64,000 nt of DNA from Halobacterium jilantaiense. Its GTDB lineage: Archaea > Halobacteriota > Halobacteria > Halobacteriales > Halobacteriaceae. Numbering within the stretch: position 1 is the first letter of the stretch; each line of letters opens with the position of its first letter. Location of the stretch: positions 558,001 to 622,000 of the forward strand of contig NZ_FOJA01000001.1 in NCBI RefSeq assembly GCF_900110535.1. Direction: 5' to 3'. This document shows positions 15,850-24,956 of this stretch, one piece after another. The position numbers were made by a program, and so were the translations under genes. The notes below the pieces were generated by a model, which saw nothing but the letters and a program-made list of their open reading frames with translations, did not search any database and had not been told where the DNA came from.

Positions 15850-16156
15850 GCACGAAAGGCGGCTGGTCACAGGGCCCTTCTCCGGGATACGGAAAGCCGG
15901 GGTCTATCGACGGCCCGTGAATTCCAATCTCAGGTGTGGCGTATCCGGTCGGAATCGTGGGCAGGTCTATGCCCGGCGGGCGCGGGGCGGCTGAACCGCC
16001 ACCGGAGGTGTGGTCGGCAACACCGAGGTCTGTGTCGAGCGCCTGAGTTGCTGAGGAGTCTGTAACTGAACTGCTCTGGGCGGCCATGGCACCGCCGGAA
16101 AGGGCTGTGATAGCCACGAGAGCGGCCACGGCAATCGTAGATGTTCTCTGGAACAT
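15839..16156 (-). CDS. small secreted proline-rich protein
   Basis: A 105-residue protein: N-terminal FQRTST then a hydrophobic stretch AVAALVAITALSGGAMAAQ, a classic Sec signal peptide with AMA-A cleavage. The mature part is Ser/Thr/Gly-rich then Pro/Gly-rich (repeated P-G-I-D, P-G-F-P-Y-P-G-E-G-P) and ends PTC. It has no lipobox and no recognised domain. ATG 16156 sits about 28 nt after a TATA box, so it is preferred over GTG 16174. The role is unknown; a secreted peptide or surface component is possible. Confidence 0.6.
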   Translation of the reverse strand: MFQRTSTIAVAALVAITALSGGAMAAQSSSVTDSSATQALDTDLGVADHTSGGGSAAPRPPGIDLPTIPTGYATPEIGIHGPSIDPGFPYPGEGPCDQPPFVPTC

Positions 16157-16179
16157 CAACCCGTGGTATTTCACACCAA

Positions 16180-16188
16180 GGTATAAAG
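16180..16188 (-). promoter_or_regulatory. TATA box for the small secreted protein
   Basis: CTTTATACC on the minus strand, centred 28 nt before ATG 16156, fits a leaderless transcript and fixes the start. Confidence 0.6.
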
Positions 16189-16523
16189 ATTTTGTATGCG
16201 ACAGTAACTACAATAATATCATATGAAGTCGTGTATGGCCCTATCCGTTCTTGTGCCACGGACACTACATCTCCAGAGGCCACAAATTGCCAATCAGAAA
16301 ACCGAACCGTCTGCCCGGAACGCGCTCACGCAGACAGTCACAACGAGAACAGTCTACAAGCCGGCGTCAAGTGTAGCAGACCGGGCGAACGTGACAAAGA
16401 GCGCTCTGTCGTCAAGAGTAACCTAGCGGTAGCCGCCGACCGGCGAGTGAGGGTGAATTCGGGTAGTCATACTGGGCCACTCCAGAATTCAATGGAATTA
16501 CCTGACAGCGACACACCCATTAA

Positions 16524-16542
16524 GCGAATTCGTCTAATTCGC
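16524..16542 (+). promoter_or_regulatory. palindrome, possible operator upstream of tatA
   Basis: GCGAATT-CGTCT-AATTCGC is a perfect 7-bp inverted repeat with a 5-nt spacer, 63-81 nt upstream of the tatA TATA box. The layout resembles a dimeric-regulator site, but no regulator is adjacent and it may be fortuitous. Confidence 0.3.
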
Positions 16543-16604
16543 AAGCATTCAGGCGTCTCCAGCGGAGAACCCAGGTCACTACGAACCTGAGGCGAGCATA
16601 AAGC

Positions 16605-16612
16605 CTATAATT
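16605..16612 (+). promoter_or_regulatory. TATA box for tatA
   Basis: CTATAATT, centred about 29 nt before ATG 16638, the expected distance for a leaderless haloarchaeal transcript. Confidence 0.5.
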
Positions 16613-16637
16613 GCGAGAGGGCTACCCCCAGATAGCG

Positions 16638-16919
16638 ATGCTCACCAGTACCCCACTGTTCATCGGCGGGCTACCGGGCGGCATGGAGTGGGCCGTCATC
16701 CTGCTCATTGCCGTCCTCCTGTTCGGTGCCAACAAGATCCCGAAACTCGCCCGTTCCAGCGGCGAAGCAATCGGCGAATTCCAGAAGGGCCGCGAAGAAG
16801 TCGAACAGGAACTCCAGGAGATTCGAGATGGCGATGCGGCGGAGGACGCCACCGACGTCGACGCCACTGACGTCGACACCGACACCACCGCGGACCGCGA
16901 CGACACCGCGGCCAACTAA
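16638..16919 (+). CDS. tatA: TatA/TatE twin-arginine translocase subunit
   Basis: A 93-residue protein with the TatA layout: a short exterior N-terminus, one hydrophobic helix (about residues 15-32, with GMEWAVILLIAVLLFGANKIP), the conserved FG hinge followed by KIPKLARSSGEAIGEF amphipathic helix, then a highly acidic tail. TatA oligomers form the size-variable pore of the twin-arginine pathway, the main export route in haloarchaea and the one used by the many Tat lipoproteins in this window. It stands alone, without tatC. The second ATG at 16683 is too close to the helix, so 16638 is used. Confidence 0.93.
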   Translation: MLTSTPLFIGGLPGGMEWAVILLIAVLLFGANKIPKLARSSGEAIGEFQKGREEVEQELQEIRDGDAAEDATDVDATDVDTDTTADRDDTAAN

Positions 16920-16985: not shown

Positions 16986-17058
16986 GGGCGTGTGGCCAAG
17001 CGGACACGGCGAGAGGTTCCTAACCTCTAGATCGCGGGTTCGAGTCCCGTCACGCCCG
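16986..17058 (+). tRNA. tRNA-Arg (anticodon CCU)
   Basis: A 73-nt cloverleaf. The acceptor GGGCGTG pairs with CACGCCC, the D-arm is GGCCAAGCGGACACGGC, the anticodon stem is AGAGG/CCTCT with loop TTCCTAA (anticodon CCU), and the T-arm is GCGGG-TTCGAGT-CCCGT. The discriminator is G and CCA is not encoded. Two further copies of its 3' end follow downstream. Confidence 0.95.
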
Positions 17059-17118
17059 TGCAGCGAGGAGCGAGCGCAGCGAGCAACGAACGAACCGGCG
17101 TGGCGGACTCGAAGTACG

Positions 17119-17141
17119 CGAGACGAGCGGAGCGAGTCTCG
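17119..17141 (+). repeat. palindromic hairpin element
   Basis: CGAGAC and GTCTCG flank an 11-nt GAGCGGAGCGA core. This GAGCG-type palindrome is a kind often seen between haloarchaeal genes. It lies between the first and second copies of the tRNA-Arg 3' end. Confidence 0.5.
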
Positions 17142-17146
17142 CCTCT

Positions 17147-17169
17147 GGTTCGACTCCCGTCACGCCCGT
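17147..17169 (+). repeat. second copy of tRNA-Arg 3' end (att-like)
   Basis: These 23 bp match the T-arm to acceptor end of tRNA-Arg (17037-17059) with a single difference (GAC for GAG). Integrases of archaeal elements commonly recombine at tRNA 3' ends and leave such direct repeats. No integrase gene is left here. Confidence 0.7.
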
Positions 17170-17201
17170 TCACTCGCGCACCTGTTCACGGCCGTGACGT
17201 T

Positions 17202-17226
17202 GTCTCGTTCGCTACGCTCACGAGAC
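17202..17226 (+). repeat. palindromic hairpin element
   Basis: GTCTCGT and ACGAGAC form a perfect 7-bp stem around TCGCTACGCTC. It is similar in style to the palindrome at 17119 and overlaps the left edge of the third tRNA-end copy. Confidence 0.5.
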
Positions 17227-17256
17227 TCCCGTCACGCCCGTGCAGTGAGGAGCGAC
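17224..17256 (+). repeat. third copy of tRNA-Arg 3' end (att-like)
   Basis: These 33 bp match tRNA-Arg and its immediate downstream flank (17042-17074) at 30 positions. The match runs past the tRNA end into the TGCAG-GAGGAGCGA flank, so it is a true duplication and not merely shared tRNA sequence. Confidence 0.72.
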
Positions 17257-17351: not shown

Positions 17352-19148
17352 TCAGGATGCGGTGACGTTGAGGCTGACCGTCCGGACGTGGGCGAAGTCG
17401 ATCGGAGCGCTGTGCTTGTTCAGGGGGACGCCGCCGTCCCCGCCGTAGTCGTCGACCGGGACGGGCCTGACCGAAGCGAGCGCGTGGTCGTAGTGGACCG
17501 GGACGCCGTCGCCGGCAAACTCGATGTCGCCGACGAGCGCGCCGTATATCGGGACGCTCGGGTCGATGTACGCGCCCGCGTCGTCGCCGCCCGGTCCGTA
17601 GATGACGCCGACGAACTCGCCGCCGCCTTCGAGGTACGCGCTGCTGTGTTTCGGAAGGTAGAGCCAGAGCCGGGTCGCGTCGTCGTCGGTGTTCGTGACG
17701 GTCGCACCACCCTGCTGGTCGTAGTCGCCAGTCGCGACCACGTTCACGCGGCCGTCCCCGACGACGCGCACTGTCGTACTGCCGCCGAGCGAGATGTCGC
17801 CGTCCACGACGAGCGTGATTTCGCCGCCGGACGGCTGGAACTCGATGTTGTCGTTGGTCAGCGACAGCGAGTCGAGGTAGTACGTGCCCGCCGTCAGCGT
17901 ACACGTCTCGCCGACGCCGTCCGAACAGGCGAGCTGGTCGCCGGTGATGGCGGTCGTCTCGCTGTTGTCGTTGCCGCCGGCCGCGAGCGAGACCGTGTCG
18001 TCCACGTAGTCTTCGATGTGGCCAGGTGTCTGAGCGTCGACTGCGACCGGCTCCTGGGTCGCGTTCTCGACGTTGCCGCCGGGGTCAGTGAGGCTCCCCT
18101 GGTAGCGGAGCGGGCCGTCGAACGACGACCCCCAGTCGACGGTCGCGTCACCGCCGACCCAGCCGCCGTCCGGACCCGCCTCGACACTGCCGCCGCCGTC
18201 GACGACGAGGTCGCCGCTCACGTGCACCGACCCGTCGAGGGACCCGCCGCTGGTCACGGTGAGGTCGCCACCCGTCCGGAGGTCACCCTGGACGCTCGCG
18301 CCGCCGTTCACCACGACGCCACCGGCCGAAACGACGCGGCCGGCGCTCCCGGAGCCGCTGTACGGCGCGACAGTCGAGTCGTAGCTGTCCGCGGAGAACC
18401 CCTGGGTGAGTTCTAGGCTGCGACTGGGGACGCCCGCGACGATGCCAGCGGTCACGTTGTCGACGACGCGACCCCGACCGAAGGTAGCAGTGACGGTCTC
18501 GTTCCCGGGGTAGAACGGTGTCGCGGGCGTCTCCCGGGCGATGTACTCGCCCCACGCCCGGTAGTACTCGCTGTGAATCGTGACCGTGAGCGCGGTGTCC
18601 TCGACGGGGTTCGACCACGACTCGTTCACGCTCGCTCCCGAGCCGGGAGTCGTGTCGAGCGCGAGCCGGCCGTTCGTCGAGGCGTCGCCGGCGAGGTCGA
18701 CCAGCCGCAGCGTCAGCGTCTCGTCCCAGTACGCCAGCGAGGGTTCGTGGATTCGCGTCATCCGTCCGTTGTCGGCCCGGAAGACCGCACCCGCCTGGTA
18801 CACGACGTGGTCGGTCGCGCCGTCCCCGAAGACGACCGAGCCGAGGCTCTGGTTGACGACCTCGTGGCTGCCGTTTCTGGTGACTCGTATCCAACCGCTG
18901 TCGCTGTCTGTCCGCGCCTGAACGCCGCCGAGGTCGACGGTGGCAGTGCCGTCGCCACCGTCCGTCGCGTCGACGACCGCGTCGTGGAAACTGTCCGCGA
19001 CTAGCTCCGACCGCTCTCGGGATACCTGCTGCTGGGCCTGGTCGAGTGACTGCCCACCCACCACGATAATCGTGGTCACCGCCAGCACCGTCATGCCGAG
19101 GAGGAGCACGACACCGAGCACCTCGGACACCCCCCGGTCGTCGGTCAT
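17352..19148 (-). CDS. pilin-like surface protein with polymer-forming-type domain
   Basis: A 598-residue protein. The N-terminus RGVSEVLGVVLLLGM followed by a hydrophobic helix matches class III (type IV pilin) signal peptides of archaeal pilins, with cleavage expected before the helix. A globular part follows (residues about 40-230, containing YYRAWGEYI). Then comes a Gly/Asp/Val-rich, beta-helix-like segment (about 270-340) with repeated GGDLTV, SGDLVVDGG, GGDATVD units, and a C-terminal domain with WLYLP and GVIYGPGG. The latter two resemble bactofilin- or adhesin-like polymer-forming modules. It is probably a large minor pilin or adhesin of the neighbouring pilus. Confidence 0.8.
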   Translation of the reverse strand: MTDDRGVSEVLGVVLLLGMTVLAVTTIIVVGGQSLDQAQQQVSRERSELVADSFHDAVVDATDGGDGTATVDLGGVQARTDSDSGWIRVTRNGSHEVVNQSLGSVVFGDGATDHVVYQAGAVFRADNGRMTRIHEPSLAYWDETLTLRLVDLAGDASTNGRLALDTTPGSGASVNESWSNPVEDTALTVTIHSEYYRAWGEYIARETPATPFYPGNETVTATFGRGRVVDNVTAGIVAGVPSRSLELTQGFSADSYDSTVAPYSGSGSAGRVVSAGGVVVNGGASVQGDLRTGGDLTVTSGGSLDGSVHVSGDLVVDGGGSVEAGPDGGWVGGDATVDWGSSFDGPLRYQGSLTDPGGNVENATQEPVAVDAQTPGHIEDYVDDTVSLAAGGNDNSETTAITGDQLACSDGVGETCTLTAGTYYLDSLSLTNDNIEFQPSGGEITLVVDGDISLGGSTTVRVVGDGRVNVVATGDYDQQGGATVTNTDDDATRLWLYLPKHSSAYLEGGGEFVGVIYGPGGDDAGAYIDPSVPIYGALVGDIEFAGDGVPVHYDHALASVRPVPVDDYGGDGGVPLNKHSAPIDFAHVRTVSLNVTAS

Positions 19149-19371
19149 GATACGCCCCTAGTTATCAGTGAATAAAAGTACTGCTGTCAGCGGGGGGATA
19201 GCCCTGTGCAGCGTCAGGACGGAGAACGAACCGCAGACAACGAAGCCCGCTGGCGGTTCGGCGCGTGGACCGTGGCGGCTCGCACTGATTCGGACTGGTC
19301 AGTCGGCGTTCCGTCGAGGTGGCGGCTCGTTGCCCATCAGGTTGATGCACCGTGGTCCGCTACGGACGAGC

Positions 19372-20721
19372 ATGACGGGTCGGGGGCGGGGGCAGTCGGA
19401 GACCATCGGACTGGTGTTGCTGCTGGCCATCACCGTTCTGGGGGTCACGTCGGTGGTGGCGTTCGCAGCGCCCGCGCTGGACGGCGCAGAGGAGGCGACG
19501 AACGCGCAGCGCGTCGAGCAGTCGCTCAGCCAGCTGGACAGTCGGACGGCCGTGGTGGCGCTCGGTCGGACCGACAGCCAGTCGGTCTCGCTGTCGGAGT
19601 CCCGCAGCGGGGCGTACGCGGTGAAGCCCGACGCCGGCCGCATCTCGGTACTGCGTCTGGACGAGAACGGCAGCCAGGTCGGCACGGTTCTGAACACGAC
19701 GATGGGCGAGGTGGTGTACGAGCGCGGCGACACCCGGGTGGCGTTCCAGGGCGGCGGCGTCTGGCGCACCTCGGGCCGCGGAGCCGAGATGCTGTCACCG
19801 CCCGAGTTCAACTATCAGGACGCGACGCTGACGCTGCCCGTGATTCGCGTCGGCGGCGAGTCGTCGACGTTCGCGGGCGCGCCGCTGGCTCGCGTGTCGG
19901 GGTCGCCGGTGACGTCGGTGTTCCCCGTGGCGAGTGACTCGAACCGGTCGAATCCGCTGTCCGGCGGCACCGTCGTCGTTCGGGTCGACAGCGACTACTA
20001 CCGGGGCTGGGAGCAGTTCTTCCGGGAGCGTTCGACTGGCAACGTCACCGTGAACGAGACGGCTGGCCGGGTGGAACTCGAACTGATTGCGCGGGGGTCG
20101 GGCGGGACCTACACGCTCGAGGAGACGCCGATCGAACTCCGGGGGCTCGGGGACGACCAACCCATCGAGAACCTCCAGTTCTCACTGTACCCGAACAAGG
20201 CATCGTCGTTCAACGACCTGCACTGGGCGATGGTCGCGGACGACGGCGGCACCGACCGCTTCGAGGTGGAACTCGACGGCGGGAATCCGTGCAAGGGGGA
20301 CAGTCCGACGGTGGCTGCGACCTACGAGAACGGCGGCACCGTCCACGAGTGGGTCAACGACACGGCGTGGACCGAGGGCCGGGACTCCGGGTCGTCGTTC
20401 ACGTACGAGTGCAGCGGAAAGAACGACAAGACGCCCGAACTGCACTTCGACCTGACCGGCGCGACGAATCTCGCCTACCAGGACGGGTCGTCGCCGCTGA
20501 CTAACGACTCCGTGGGGAACATCGTGAACACGTACCTCGCGGAGATGGGGCCGAACGTCGATCTCGAAGTGACGTCGAAGGGGAAAAACGACCCGCCGGG
20601 GAACTCCGCCAGCACGGACCTGGCCGCGTCGACTGTGGACGTCGACTACAACTCCTCGTCGGGCCGCGTGCTGACGTTCCTGCACGTCACCGAGAACTCC
20701 GTGAACGTCACGCTCACCTAG
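19372..20721 (+). CDS. pilin-like surface protein
   Basis: A 449-residue protein with the class III signal RGQSETIGLVLLLAIT and a helix to about residue 30, closely related in its first half to the protein encoded divergently at 17352-19148 (shared GxVVYERGD, WRTSGR/VFRADNGR, YYRGWEQF/YYRAWGEY). The second half, with a Cys pair (NPCKGDS, YECSG), has no match to the beta-helix part of that paralogue. ATG 19372 places the pilin motif near the N-terminus; upstream in-frame codons are unlikely. It ends 4 nt inside the convergent pilin-like gene. Confidence 0.8.
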   Translation: MTGRGRGQSETIGLVLLLAITVLGVTSVVAFAAPALDGAEEATNAQRVEQSLSQLDSRTAVVALGRTDSQSVSLSESRSGAYAVKPDAGRISVLRLDENGSQVGTVLNTTMGEVVYERGDTRVAFQGGGVWRTSGRGAEMLSPPEFNYQDATLTLPVIRVGGESSTFAGAPLARVSGSPVTSVFPVASDSNRSNPLSGGTVVVRVDSDYYRGWEQFFRERSTGNVTVNETAGRVELELIARGSGGTYTLEETPIELRGLGDDQPIENLQFSLYPNKASSFNDLHWAMVADDGGTDRFEVELDGGNPCKGDSPTVAATYENGGTVHEWVNDTAWTEGRDSGSSFTYECSGKNDKTPELHFDLTGATNLAYQDGSSPLTNDSVGNIVNTYLAEMGPNVDLEVTSKGKNDPPGNSASTDLAASTVDVDYNSSSGRVLTFLHVTENSVNVTLT

Positions 20722-21467
20722 ACCGAGACGCCGACGCCGATGGCCTGCACGTACACTTCGTCGCCGGGGAGCGGACAGGACACTCGCCCAGTGAAACCGT
20801 CGTCGGGGCCGTCGCAGTCGACGGCGAGTTCGGCTTCGAGGTAGCGCTCCCAGGCCGCTGCCCTCGGTGTCGTGACGTTCAGGCGCGTGTCCGGGTCGTC
20901 GAACGTCCGGACATCGCGACCGTTGACGACGGTTCGCACGAGGATGCGACGAGCGTTCGTCGCCGACGCGCCGTTGCTGCGCGCGCTCGTGACGACGAAC
21001 GGAACGAACGTGCGGTCGCCGGCCGACACCCGGGGTTCGTTCGCGAGGTAGGCGTCGTCGCCGTGCTGTCGGAGGACAGCGCCGTTCACGTAGACGAGTT
21101 CGGCACCGCCGTCGGTCCGGTAGACCAGCGGCGTGACGTTCGCCGCGTAGTAGTTCGTGCCGCCCGCGGTGACGTTGAACGTCACCGGGTCGCCGAAGTC
21201 GAGTTCCGCCTCCGACAGCAGAATCTCCGTACTGCGTCGCGGCGCGCCCCGGACCGCGAGGTCCTCGACGTTGCCGTCCAGCACGTCGAGGGCCTGCTCG
21301 GCGTTCGTCACCTGCTGGCTGTCGCGGGCGTCTTCGAGCACCTGGAAGCCGCCGACGGAGACGACGGCGACGGCGGAGACGATGAGTCCGAACACGAGCA
21401 CGAACCCGATGACGTCGCTGAGGCCGCGCGCGGTCTCGCCGCGACTGGCAGCCGGCGGGCTACGCAT
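20718..21467 (-). CDS. pilin-like protein of the pilus operon
   Basis: A 249-residue protein with a short basic leader, then RGLSDVIGFVLVFGLIVSAVAVV, a pilin-type N-terminal helix, and an extracytoplasmic domain with two Cys near the end (VDCDGP, VSCPLP) that may form a disulfide. It is the last gene of the operon running down from the ATPase at 27952. Its ATG lies 8 nt inside the preceding gene. It probably makes a minor pilin or pseudopilin of this machine. Confidence 0.78.
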   Translation of the reverse strand: MRSPPAASRGETARGLSDVIGFVLVFGLIVSAVAVVSVGGFQVLEDARDSQQVTNAEQALDVLDGNVEDLAVRGAPRRSTEILLSEAELDFGDPVTFNVTAGGTNYYAANVTPLVYRTDGGAELVYVNGAVLRQHGDDAYLANEPRVSAGDRTFVPFVVTSARSNGASATNARRILVRTVVNGRDVRTFDDPDTRLNVTTPRAAAWERYLEAELAVDCDGPDDGFTGRVSCPLPGDEVYVQAIGVGVSV

Positions 21468-21906
21468 CGGTCACCACCAGCGTGTCGTTACCGGGGTCGT
21501 AGACGACCGCGAGGTCGCCGCCGTCCACGGTCGACGCCTGTACGGGGGTCGTCGTCTCGAACGGCACGACGACCTCGACGTCCGGCTGGTCGGCGCGGAG
21601 GACGATGTTGCCGTTCCCGTTCTCGTTCACGCTGGCCGTGTAGTAGCTGCCGGCGACGCGTGCCGGCACGTCGACCTCGACTCGCACCGCAGTCGGGTCG
21701 TTGGTGCGCGCGAGGCGGTCGGCGGCCGCGAGGTCCGCGGCGAGGCGTTCGCCGACGACGTCCAGTTCCGTGTCGGCGGCGCGGTCGCGCTGGTCCTCGA
21801 CGAGCGTGCCCGCGGACAGCAGCAGGATGGTCACGAGCAGCGTCGCCACCCCGAGGTTGAGGACGTACCCGAGCGCGGTGGAGACGCCGCGGCTCACGTC
21901 CGCCAC
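21460..21906 (-). CDS. pilin-like protein of the pilus operon
   Basis: A 148-residue protein: RGVSTALGYVLNLGVATLLVTILLL gives the pilin-type motif and helix, then EDQRDRAADTELDVVGERLAADL and a beta-rich domain with Asn-rich NENGNGNIV. It resembles uncharacterised haloarchaeal families found only beside PilB/PilC pairs. The start is GTG 21906, overlapping the previous gene by 13 nt; no ATG is better placed. Confidence 0.76.
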   Translation of the reverse strand: MADVSRGVSTALGYVLNLGVATLLVTILLLSAGTLVEDQRDRAADTELDVVGERLAADLAAADRLARTNDPTAVRVEVDVPARVAGSYYTASVNENGNGNIVLRADQPDVEVVVPFETTTPVQASTVDGGDLAVVYDPGNDTLVVTDA

Positions 21907-22475
21907 GCGACCACCTCCACCGTGTAGACGCCGTACACCGCTCCGGGCGTGTCGGGACCGAGGTACGAGGCGTTCTCGACGCTCGGCCCGACCGCCGTGC
22001 CGCGCTCGTTCACGACCTGCTGGTCGTCGTAGACCGTGACGGTCCGGGTCGAGCCGACGGAGTCCGCGCTCGGCGCGCCCGTGTAGACGACGCGGCGCTG
22101 TCGGCGGTCGCCGTCGTCCGTGACGTAGTAGACGTTGACGTTGTACGCGATTGCGCGGTCCCCGCCGAACGTCGCAGCGAGCGCCCGCCCGAACGTCGTG
22201 TTCGGCGGGTCGCCGACGTAGTAGCCGTCCTCGCTGGTGTTCGCGAACTCCCCGCCGGAGGCGTTCCAGTACCGGAGCGTCTCGGAGAGCGAGCCGTCGC
22301 CACGCGAGGTTTCGAGGACGCTCGCCGCGGCGCGCTCGTGCTGGGTCTCGATGTGCTGGCTGGCGGTGCTGGCGGTCAGCGGCGTCACAGCCGTCCCCTG
22401 GAGCGTGAACGCGACGGCCGCGACGACGATGAGGGCCGCGGCGACGCCTTCGAGAGTGTGGGCCTGTGCGCGCAC
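21894..22475 (-). CDS. pilin-like protein of the pilus operon
   Basis: A 193-residue protein starting MRAQAHTLEGVAAALIVVAAVAF. The helix begins within 10 residues, shorter than in the sister proteins, and TLEGV replaces the SExIG motif. The exterior domain has YYVGDPPNTTFGRAL and YNVNVYYVTDDGDR. It belongs to a haloarchaeal family typical of pilus operons (the family I know as DUF7288, number not verified). It lies 1 nt from the end of the next upstream gene. Confidence 0.76.
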   Translation of the reverse strand: MRAQAHTLEGVAAALIVVAAVAFTLQGTAVTPLTASTASQHIETQHERAAASVLETSRGDGSLSETLRYWNASGGEFANTSEDGYYVGDPPNTTFGRALAATFGGDRAIAYNVNVYYVTDDGDRRQRRVVYTGAPSADSVGSTRTVTVYDDQQVVNERGTAVGPSVENASYLGPDTPGAVYGVYTVEVVAWRT

Positions 22476-22476
22476 G

Positions 22477-22932
22477 CTACCACACCCGCACGGTCAGTTC
22501 GAGCCGCCGGTCGTCGGTTGTCACGGTTCGCCACGCGGTCGTCACGTCGGCGTTCGACGGCGTCTCGGGGCCGGCGGCGGCGCGCTCGCCGCCGACGTCG
22601 ACGACTCCGGTCGCGTTCTCGATGGTGACGTTCACGGTCCGGTACTCGGGGACCGCGAGGCGGTCGATTGCGTCCGGGTCGCCGAAGAAGTCGGCGGCGC
22701 GCTCGTCGTCGAGGACGTACTCCTCGCCGGCAACTGAGAGCCGGTCCGTCGCCAGGCCGTCGGCAATGCGGTTCGCCGTCGCCGGGTCGGCCGTCCCCGC
22801 GTCCGCGAACGGCGCGATGATGCCGGGGACGAACGCGAACGCGAACGCCACCGTCACCAGGAAGACGCTGATGCCCACGGTGAAGTCGATCGTGGTCTGC
22901 GCGCGCCGTCCCGGGAGTGTGCTGGCGGTCAT
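22477..22932 (-). CDS. pilin-like protein of the pilus operon
   Basis: About 151 residues: PGRRAQTTIDFTVGISVFLVTVAF is a pilin-type leader and helix (TTIDFTVGI corresponds to the SExIG region). The exterior domain contains GEEYVLDDERAADFFGD and ends with LTVRVW. The start may be ATG 22932 or GTG 22938; the latter overlaps the TadC-like gene by 4 nt, and both give the same mature protein. It resembles a haloarchaeal pilus-operon family (DUF7287 by memory, not verified). Confidence 0.76.
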   Translation of the reverse strand: MTASTLPGRRAQTTIDFTVGISVFLVTVAFAFAFVPGIIAPFADAGTADPATANRIADGLATDRLSVAGEEYVLDDERAADFFGDPDAIDRLAVPEYRTVNVTIENATGVVDVGGERAAAGPETPSNADVTTAWRTVTTDDRRLELTVRVW

Positions 22933-22934
22933 GG

Positions 22935-24956
22935 TCACGCGAACGAGAACACGAGCAGGGCAATGGTCGGCAGCACGACCGCGAACTTCACCCCCGCGAG
23001 CACGCTGGCGTCCCGGATGTAGCCCGCGATGAACCCGGAGACGAGCCCCTGGATGGTGACGGCGTGGAAGAACATCGCGCCGAGCGCGTCCGTGTCGATG
23101 CCGCCGCCGAAGTCCAGTTGGTTCGCGCCGGCCTCCGCGGCCTGACCGCCAGCGCCCGCCGACGTCGAGAGCCCCTCCATCGTGCCGAGGAACTTCACGT
23201 CGAGGATGACCATCACCGCCAGCAGCGTGAGGTATGTCATGACGATGATGACGACCTGCATGCGCGCTCGGGAGCGCCGCTCGCGGTCGATGTCGTCCTG
23301 ATTCTCGCTGGCCTGCGCTGCGGTCGTGAGGACCGCCGTAATCTGGCTGGAGGCCTCCTGAGCTTTCGCGACGAGCTTCACCGTGCGGGCGAGTCGCGGG
23401 ATGTGGTACTTGTTGTTGAACTCGACGAGCGCCTGCCGCAGGCTCGTGCCGTAGTTCACCTTCGCGTACATCACCTCGAACTCCTCACCGAGTTTCCCGG
23501 TGGTGGTGTCGGCGACGGTCTGGACGGACTCCAGCAGCGTCATCCCGGTGTCGTTCGCCGAGGAGAGCTTCCGGAGGTTGTCCGAGAGCTTGTTCGTGAT
23601 GCGGTGCCGGGAGCGCACATTCCACTCGCGGAACACCGCCAGCGGCACGCCGATGGCGTACAGCGGGACGTACGCGTAGAGGAACGTCCCCCAGACGGGC
23701 TGGTCCACCATCCCCTGCCAGCTGGTGGGTGCGACGCCGCCGAAGACGGCCGCCCCCATCACGACGAGCGTGACGGGAACGGTGAACGCGAGCGTGAACA
23801 GCGGCCGGTCGCGGAAGAAGCCGCCCGGGTGCTTGAGCAGCCGCACGGTCTCGTGGGTGCCCTCGCGGCTCCGCACGCGGTCGAAGATGCCGTACTCGCC
23901 GACGAAGCGCTCGACGAGCCCGAGGTCCCGCAGGCCGGGTTCCCGGCTCGTCTCGCCGTCGCCGAGTTCCAGATAGCCGTCGCCCGGCTCGTCCTCCTTG
24001 ACTGTCGCCACCAGCACGAGGAAGCCGACGCCGACCATCGGCGTGAGCACGTAGACGGTGGCGTACAGCAGGAACATCTGGGCCTGCCCGAGCATGCTCA
24101 TGATGACGAGGATGATGATGAGGAGGAGTGGGAACAGCGAGAGCGTCATGTACATCTCGCCGAACAGCTCCAGCGTCTCCAGGGTGAGTTCCTGTTGCTG
24201 TTTCGCGGTTCGCATGTGCTTGTCCTTCTTGTCCGCGAGGAACTCCGTCATGTTCCCGCCGGAGTTGATGATGGAGAGCATGTCCGTCAGGAACTGGCTG
24301 AGTTCGTCGCTCGGCGTCTCCATCGCGCGGTTCCGCACCGCCGTCCGGTAGTCGGTGTCGAAGTACTCGGTCTCCTGGACGATGGCCCGGAACTCCATCG
24401 CGACCTCGCCGTAGGTGTCGTCGGCCTTCGCCATCGCTTCGAGGATTTCGAGCTGGTTCATGCCGCCGATGGAGAGCGCGTACATGAACGAGACGGAGTC
24501 CGCGAGCAGCATGTTGATCTCGCGCTCCCGGCTGTTCGACCGCATGTAGGGGACCGCGACGAGGCCGCCGAACCCGAGCGTGAACCCCAGAAGTCCGAAG
24601 ACGAGGCCGGTGGCGACGACGAGGGCGGGAATCTTCAGCGCCGAGACGACCGCCAGCAGCGTCTCGTTCGGGACGGGGACGCCGATGAGCGTCTCCGTCG
24701 GAACGAATCCGAGGTAGAACAGGACGTAGCCGAGGCCCAGGCCGAGCAGCCAGAGCACGCCACCGAGCAGCACGCCGACGCCGAGTGCCCGGGAGACGAA
24801 CAGCTCCACGGGGTCGTCCATCCGGGCTTCGGCGAGCTTCGTCTCGATGTCGCCGACGAAGTCGCTGCGGTCGCTGAACGCCCACTGGTACAGCGGGTAG
24901 AAGGCGTCGGCGAGCGCGTCCGCGCCCTGCCCGAAGCTGCGGGACCCGGTGCTCAT
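22935..24956 (-). CDS. pilC: type IV pilus membrane platform protein (TadC/PilC-like)
   Basis: A 673-residue integral membrane protein with two T2SSF modules (around residues 155-255, with FMYALSIGGMNQLEILEAMA, and around 465-570, with LSSANDTGMTLLESV), each followed by hydrophobic helices, and a membrane-rich C-terminus. It is the partner of the ATPase encoded immediately upstream, whose stop it overlaps by 4 nt (ATGA), so the two are coupled. It anchors the motor and pulls the pilin-like proteins from the membrane. Confidence 0.9.
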   Translation of the reverse strand: MSTGSRSFGQGADALADAFYPLYQWAFSDRSDFVGDIETKLAEARMDDPVELFVSRALGVGVLLGGVLWLLGLGLGYVLFYLGFVPTETLIGVPVPNETLLAVVSALKIPALVVATGLVFGLLGFTLGFGGLVAVPYMRSNSREREINMLLADSVSFMYALSIGGMNQLEILEAMAKADDTYGEVAMEFRAIVQETEYFDTDYRTAVRNRAMETPSDELSQFLTDMLSIINSGGNMTEFLADKKDKHMRTAKQQQELTLETLELFGEMYMTLSLFPLLLIIILVIMSMLGQAQMFLLYATVYVLTPMVGVGFLVLVATVKEDEPGDGYLELGDGETSREPGLRDLGLVERFVGEYGIFDRVRSREGTHETVRLLKHPGGFFRDRPLFTLAFTVPVTLVVMGAAVFGGVAPTSWQGMVDQPVWGTFLYAYVPLYAIGVPLAVFREWNVRSRHRITNKLSDNLRKLSSANDTGMTLLESVQTVADTTTGKLGEEFEVMYAKVNYGTSLRQALVEFNNKYHIPRLARTVKLVAKAQEASSQITAVLTTAAQASENQDDIDRERRSRARMQVVIIVMTYLTLLAVMVILDVKFLGTMEGLSTSAGAGGQAAEAGANQLDFGGGIDTDALGAMFFHAVTIQGLVSGFIAGYIRDASVLAGVKFAVVLPTIALLVFSFA

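Follow-up and report, generated by a model that had tools for sequence, protein, structure and literature searches.

Copies of the tRNA-Arg(CCU) 3' end in Halobacterium jilantaiense: probable members of a haloarchaeal family of tRNA-anchored palindromic units

Repeats that carry the 3' end of a tRNA are known from Escherichia coli, where the tyrT distal repeats (rtT) form tandem units behind a tRNA gene, each with the tRNA 3' end, at one locus. Another well-known kind of folded repeat is the attC site of integrons, which has paired ends, an unpaired spacer, a variable tip and an R box of the type GTTRRRY. Archaeal integrases target tRNA 3' ends, the 5' limit varying from case to case (PMC8371274), and according to accounts of haloarchaeal att duplications the direct repeat of the tRNA 3' end restores the gene (PMC8371274, PMC3119063, PMC7911831). 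In addition, PATEs, SMRs and MITEs have been reported from Haloquadratum as short, gene-less and presumably mobile repeats, the PATEs being palindromic (PMC3119063).

The window, i.e., the whole 64,000-nt stretch of DNA analysed, corresponds to G000:C1:558001-622000 and is part of the 2.95-Mb chromosome of H. jilantaiense (genome G000). ARAGORN called a tRNA-Arg(CCT) gene, referred to below as tRNA-Arg(CCU), at 16986-17058 on the plus strand, on which all features of the locus are given. An earlier note on this DNA had described three tandem copies of the 3' end of this tRNA, and they are real. The first repeat is the last 22 nt of the gene itself (GGTTCGAGTCCCGTCACGCCCG, 17037-17058); copy 2 (GGTTCGACTCCCGTCACGCCCG, 17147-17168) is a direct copy with 21/22 matches, and copy 3 (GACTCCCGTCACGCCCG, 17224-17240) is a direct acceptor copy of 17 nt with 16/17 matches. 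Between the gene and copy 2 lies the 88-bp body of a class A unit (17059-17146), consisting of a GAGCG-type spacer, an inverted arm and a core hairpin. The inverted arm is a partial inverted copy of the tRNA T-arm/acceptor (17095-17115), which, in folds predicted for both RNA and DNA, pairs with the copy; its T-arm part (GGACTCGAAGT, 17105-17115) matches at 8/11 positions. The inner core hairpin, GAGACGAGCGGAGCGAGTCTC, occupies 17120-17140. The next unit, of class B (17169-17240), ends in copy 3 and contains an inverted acceptor end (CGGCCGTGACG, 17189-17199) and a hairpin (17202-17226). The 15 nt directly after copy 3, TGCAGTGAGGAGCGA (17241-17255), resemble the class A start (17059-17073) and are related to the flank TGCAGCGAGGAGCGA found after tRNA-Arg(CCU); they are a possible remnant of a further class A unit. 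On this reading, a class A unit and a class B unit stand in the window, followed perhaps by the start of a second class A unit.

In a flank control, the last 22 nt of tRNA-Arg(CCU) reached 21/22 in the gene's own downstream flank, 11/22 at best upstream and 16/22 at best in the flanks of the 41 other tRNAs of the genome. With up to three mismatches, the 18-mer searched for occurred three times in the 64 kb, always at this locus (0.61 expected), and 3 of 100 shuffles reached three occurrences. As for the predicted DNA folds, class B (17189-17240) was better than all 200 shuffles (z -4.2), the class A hairpin of the window was moderate (z -1.8) and the whole 110-nt class A unit was not better than shuffles (z 0.39). 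The AT-rich region that had been placed to the left of the repeats exists but is mild, with a GC content of 46% at 16100-16299 and 57% at 16300-16699 against 68% for the window. A gene for a TatA-like protein (PF02416; 16611-16919, plus strand) lies directly upstream of the tRNA gene; downstream, the region 17352-24956 contains several DUF7289 ORFs with weak pilin N-terminal matches and a T2SSF ORF and is type IV pilus-like.

Copies of this kind were counted behind other tRNA genes, an own copy being a match of at least 18/22 to the last 22 nt of the tRNA within 300 bp. In the genome of the window, own copies were found downstream of 11/42 tRNAs and upstream of 0/42. Downstream copies were found for 7/30 tRNAs in G010, 3/30 in G011 and 10/30 in G027, which belongs to another family (30/43, 30/46 and 30/46 tRNAs examined, respectively), one of the ten in G027 being merely a neighbouring tRNA-Asp gene; upstream there were none in G010 and G011 and one in G027, probably the tRNA-Asp pair. 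When tRNAs were paired with flanks of other tRNAs, the same level was reached in 18/1720 pairs in G000, 11/866 in G010, 4/870 in G011 and 9/862 in G027. Among the loci found with a type II core pattern (described below), where the tRNA ends of one isoacceptor differ between species, the copy fitted its own tRNA better than that of the other species in 70/70 ordered pairs (21.4 versus 18.7 of 22), in a test that omits copies below 17/22 and favours the own match, as copies were placed by their best match to it. For tRNA-Arg(CCU), one locus was taken from each of 30 of 40 genomes, and 13/30 loci had a copy of the gene's own last 21 nt with at most two mismatches, the first one 75-149 nt downstream. 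A tandem array was found behind a tRNA-Leu gene (L292), with three further 22/22 copies. Three unit matches with an exact 122-bp period form another tandem array at G125:C1:63211-63521.

Repeated units each carrying the tRNA 3' end, the hallmark of rtT-type repeats, are thus present here, and as in tyrT/rtT they can stand in tandem behind a tRNA gene. Unlike those repeats of a single locus, they occur behind many kinds of tRNA, have a common covarying core and an inverted T-arm, and in a scan of 120 genomes of the phylum are confined to one archaeal order. With the haloarchaeal att duplications, as these are presented in PMC8371274, PMC3119063 and PMC7911831, they share a direct tRNA 3'-end repeat that restores the gene, but the units contain neither integrase nor cargo, their body measures 79-185 bp (units behind tRNAs of G000, G010, G011 and G027) and they lie outside the islands at five tRNAs. 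They are short and gene-less like PATEs, SMRs and MITEs and palindromic like PATEs; however, the available part of PMC3119063 mentions no tRNA targeting and reports PATEs and SMRs to be without target duplication. MITE-type terminal inverted repeats were not seen by eye in the unit ends.

Class A units have a common order of parts: often a first hairpin (H1), then an inverted T-arm (approximately GGATTYGAACC), a conserved core with a covarying stem and, last, a direct copy of the host tRNA that starts at G52/G53 and ends at the discriminator base. The 3' end of the tRNA gene serves as the first repeat, and units can form arrays. Among 36 extracted stretches with a copy of at least 17/22, at least two of which are neighbouring tRNA genes, an inverted T-arm with at least 7/11 matches preceded the copy in 32, and in 24 of those it had at least 9/11. 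The consensus of the aligned units reads roughly GGATTYGAACC-CT-NNNAG-[T/A]-CGC..tip..CGT-CTNNN-TCC-GGTTCRAATCC, with a variable tip, often GAGCGNAGCGAG. Its stem comprises 16 pairs, nine of which show changes on both sides in one sequence or more. Of two adjacent middle-stem pairs, one was seen as CG, GC, UA and AU and the other as CG, GC and AU. In our naming, cores are of type I (GTCGCAGC..GACCGTC), type II (GTCGCGCGCAGCGA..GAGCACGTC) or the short type of the window (GAGACGAGCGGAGCGAGTCTC). In 87 units pre-selected for copies of at least 20/22, the left edge of the copy is sharp at G52/G53, identity being 0.37 at position -23, 0.89 at -22 and 0.99 at -21; the right edge is soft, the shared stretch ending at the discriminator with weak similarity beyond. 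A mobile element with a tRNA-specific inverted acceptor arm was also considered and rejected (own acceptor 5.03 versus 4.61 of 11 for others, n = 32, p = 0.09), since mainly the T-arm half is shared.

A covariance model (R1) rests on 23 units, hand-picked for the standard core among 42 extracted ones and all taken from behind tRNAs; its E-values are rough, and a cut-off of E <= 1e-5 was used. In G000, G010, G011 and G027 together, R1 gave 48 matches, and 39 of them follow a same-strand tRNA at no more than 300 nt (37/177 tRNAs), against 0.27% of positions expected there. The nine others comprise six behind islands at a tRNA and three elsewhere. The class A unit of the window (G000:C1:575103-575160) scores 28.8 bits (E 5.4e-4) and falls outside the cut-off; by its anatomy and by the units at the same tRNA in G010, G001 and G012 (40, 70 and 92 bits, respectively), it is a divergent member of the family. 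In a scan of 120 genomes of the phylum with stricter filters, 18 matched R1 at E <= 1e-5, all within the order of the window, and these are labelled as its own genome or as members of the same genus, family or order. Among the genomes listed, 18/19 members of the order match. The only one without a match, G130, gave few first-pass candidates and is perhaps a low-GC genome. The other genomes listed carry the label of the phylum alone, and a further 82 genomes outside the listing had no match.

The distribution was also followed with a type II core pattern, which includes no tRNA sequence, fixes part of the stem and found at least 120 stretches in named genomes. The 80 listed loci contain 84 such cores; 66 of these follow a same-strand tRNA at a distance of at most 300 bp, and the copies at these sites score 22/22 in 39 cases, 21 in 13, 20 in 4, 19 in 2 and 17 or less in 8. 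For six of the other 18 listed cores the tRNA is 302-1824 bp away; for the remaining 12 the stretch contains no tRNA, and seven of these are at most 450 nt from its edge. No transposase was recognised by eye among the ORFs near seven sites without a nearby tRNA. Among the loci listed, the same core sequence occurs behind unrelated tRNAs in many genera, and the names are those of haloarchaea or 'archaeon' except for one Bacteroidetes metagenome-assembled genome (MAG). The contig with that title (L269) has a tRNA-Val gene and a haloarchaeal-type unit with a 22/22 copy and is probably misbinned. A full unit with a degenerate copy was found at G011:C1:2103466-2103539, where the nearest same-strand upstream tRNA is 327 kb away. 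In G027 (L202-L206), a separate intergenic repeat, GAGGCTGGGGAGGCGTGAGG..GGAAGTCGCAGC..GGAACGTCTTCC by eye, has the unit core without a tRNA copy, and four of its five stretches contain no tRNA. According to PMC7911831, false 90-bp repeats occur in some draft assemblies. An assembly artefact is unlikely for the units, which are orthologous across species and present in genomes assembled into one or two contigs (G010, G000).

Thirteen congeners were compared along an rpoB tree in which 4/10 inner branches are well supported. Judged by R1 and the sequences read, units are present behind tRNA-Gly(ccc) in seven, behind tRNA-Phe in nine and behind tRNA-Arg(CCU) in four and weakly in one more; at Gly(ccc), G001 has a 21/22 copy without an R1 match. 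Precise empty sites were found: in G007 and G005, tRNA-Gly(ccc) directly adjoins the flank that follows the copy in G000. In G011 the sequence behind the window's copy 2 directly adjoins tRNA-Arg(CCU). By eye, several congeners without class A have a class B-like element directly behind the tRNA, and the Phe loci show at least four body types, patchily shared. Orthologous Gly units have swapped cores, of type I in G008, G009 and G002 and of type II in G000, G003, G012 and G011. Judging from the sequences, this pattern would fit a turnover of arrays, filled and empty sites being equally explained by deletion alone; the units behind tRNA-Gly(ccc) and tRNA-Phe appear for the most part to be ancient and vertically inherited.

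Taken together, these characteristics allow us to propose, with a probability of roughly 0.55, that the three copies are part of a family of palindromic, gene-free units in haloarchaea that are anchored on tRNA genes and gained and lost as modules. The 22-bp direct repeats would plausibly allow loss, by recombination or slippage between them and with the help of the intervening palindrome, and such loss would restore an intact tRNA; repeat-mediated deletions in Haloquadratum, mostly between repeats shorter than 20 bp, are a reported precedent (PMC3119063). Gain may occur by site-specific insertion, as suggested by an edge that is sharp at the T-loop, a core that is conserved and folded, and the need for the tRNA to be rebuilt; the exchange point would be G53/T54 in the T-loop, and a recombinase would act in trans and recognise the hairpin. 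If selection lets only those insertions survive that rebuild the same tRNA 3' end, the match of each copy to its own tRNA would be accounted for. In the genomes compared, no recombinase could be tied to the units and neither a circle nor a new insertion was seen. No viral contig matched the type II core pattern, and a blastn search with one Gly unit gave no phage match and two weak plasmid matches, which is odd for a mobile element.

A possible alternative, to which we give a lesser but appreciable weight, is an immobile resident RNA or DNA element, in which selection keeps the hairpin (as a terminator, a processing decoy or a protein-binding site) and gene conversion keeps the copy. It agrees with the covarying stem, with units that persist at Gly(ccc) and Phe through much of the genus and with a hairpin tested in Haloferax volcanii that terminated 59% of transcripts, as reported in PMC7237163. 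The mismatches were counted roughly, as both-strand matches of one palindrome were only loosely filtered: the T-arm columns contain 52 G.T against 19 A.C (21 of the 52 at the pair adjoining the inner loop), an excess that fits this alternative and could reflect an RNA role, but the middle stem, with 9 G.T against 12 A.C, has no G.U excess, and the wobble asymmetry is not decisive between RNA and DNA. A resident element is also at odds with the 31/42 tRNAs of G000 that have no copy of at least 18/22 and with the absence of units from several congeners. Moreover, in six unit-bearing loci only tRNA exceeded the Rfam gathering score, two other families staying below theirs and lying on the tRNAs.

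More doubtful is a specific form of mobility, namely an integron-like system without genes, in which a recombinase would move single-stranded hairpin cassettes on tRNA T-loops and the tRNA 3' end would be the repeat of the array. With attC cassettes, the units share a folded hairpin with conserved ends, an unpaired internal loop and a variable tip, an arrangement in modules and a proposed exchange near G/TT, and paired ends, a conserved internal loop and a variable tip of the attC type were indeed found in the consensus structure. They differ in carrying no gene, in having no demonstrated integron integrase and in being anchored on tRNA genes; in place of the R box GTTRRRY, the end box of the unit is the tRNA T-loop, mostly GTTCRA by eye. 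Phage_integrase matches, all classes taken together, occur in at least 38/40 genomes.

A purely mutational origin is improbable. Template switching or slippage at T-arm palindromes would make the copies in place, and unequal recombination would multiply or remove them, in line with the direct repeats that flank palindromes, the soft right edge of the copy and the tandem arrays of L292 (tRNA-Leu) and G125 (122-bp period). However, the same core is found behind unrelated tRNAs in many genera and, in the scan of 120 genomes of the phylum, in one order only, and copying in place would not carry one core.

The earlier note had read the locus as a scar of integration and excision or a vacant att site. 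Precise empty sites in congeners and the coming and going of repeat-bounded units bear out part of this reading, but the scar of an integrase-bearing island is unsupported and very unlikely. In favour of such a scar, tRNA 3' ends are known att sites, and islands do occur at other tRNAs in the genomes compared. A 22-nt tRNA duplication bounds one Haloquadratum prophage (PMC3119063). As had been noted, no integrase is left at the locus, which holds for the nine neighbouring ORFs in a Pfam scan; in 40 genomes, with loci read to about 1.5 kb, no Phage_integrase match lay within 20 kb of a tRNA-Arg(CCU) match among the matches listed.

Islands between a tRNA and its unit were found at five tRNAs, namely Gly(tcc) in G027, Val(gac), Leu(tag) and Val(tac) in G011 and Val(cac) in G010. 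These inserts of 2-28 kb follow the tRNA, and each ends in its own tRNA copy, which in four reaches further left than G52 (more than 22 nt) and at Val(tac) is shorter (17 nt unbroken). An att core equal to the shared repeat, which the note had expected of islands, was not found in these five, none of which sits at tRNA-Arg(CCU): their own repeats differ in extent, and an R1-positive unit lies behind each. In the displaced units, the last copy is exact at Gly and Leu (22/22), weaker at Val(tac) (19/22) and Val(cac) (17/22) and below 17/22 at Val(gac). To the eye, the Val(tac) and Val(cac) bodies look like those that adjoin these tRNAs directly in G010 and G000. Integrase matches lie inside four of the five inserts (G027 and the three in G011) among the matches listed, and the Val(cac) insert of G010 has a 403-aa integrase-like ORF by eye. 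The 2.4-kb insert at tRNA-Val(gac) (L194, G011:C1:2189600-2193200) contains a 360-aa integrase-like ORF and little else. In the 27.6-kb stretch from tRNA-Val(tac) to the displaced unit, a five-tRNA cluster (L196 7203-7735, G011:C1 about 229.0-229.5 kb) is perhaps island-borne.

Since the unit lies outside the island, behind the island's own repeat, it was probably present before the island and is not its scar, and a scar would also leave the common core and the inverted T-arm unexplained. The earlier note had itself named a widespread intergenic repeat as the case against a scar, and like units do lie behind many kinds of tRNA in many haloarchaea. This, together with the position of units outside islands, makes the copies at this locus look like an array of such units and not like what a departed virus would leave behind.

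Least credible is a PATE-like derivative of IS605-type elements, moved by a Y1 (HUH) transposase via its hairpin, which was rejected as an origin: PATEs have near-terminal palindromes and show repeat-mediated core deletions in Haloquadratum (PMC3119063), core-only hairpins lie away from tRNAs in G011 and G027, and one partial core match is near a Y1 gene (L402, 19.2 bits, E 0.002), but Y1_Tnp matches number 0 in both G000 and G027, which bear units (2 in G010, 6 in G011), full R1 matches in the eight Y1 loci are limited to L407 (a tRNA-Phe unit and the displaced Val(tac) unit), and the absence of target duplication reported for PATEs contrasts with the 22 bp duplicated here.

The preferred reading, a family of tRNA-anchored units gained and lost as modules, concerns a repeat family that 18/19 listed genomes of one archaeal order contain and that occupies a place where viruses and plasmids of archaea commonly land. 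It is apparently undescribed, provisionally so: a search at title and abstract level, with most subscription journals outside its reach, found no published description of such units. The units can mislead searches for att sites and proviruses, because a short tRNA duplication is usually taken for an att site. They also offer a natural, countable system for repeat-mediated deletion, and possibly for hairpin recombination, in genetically tractable archaea.
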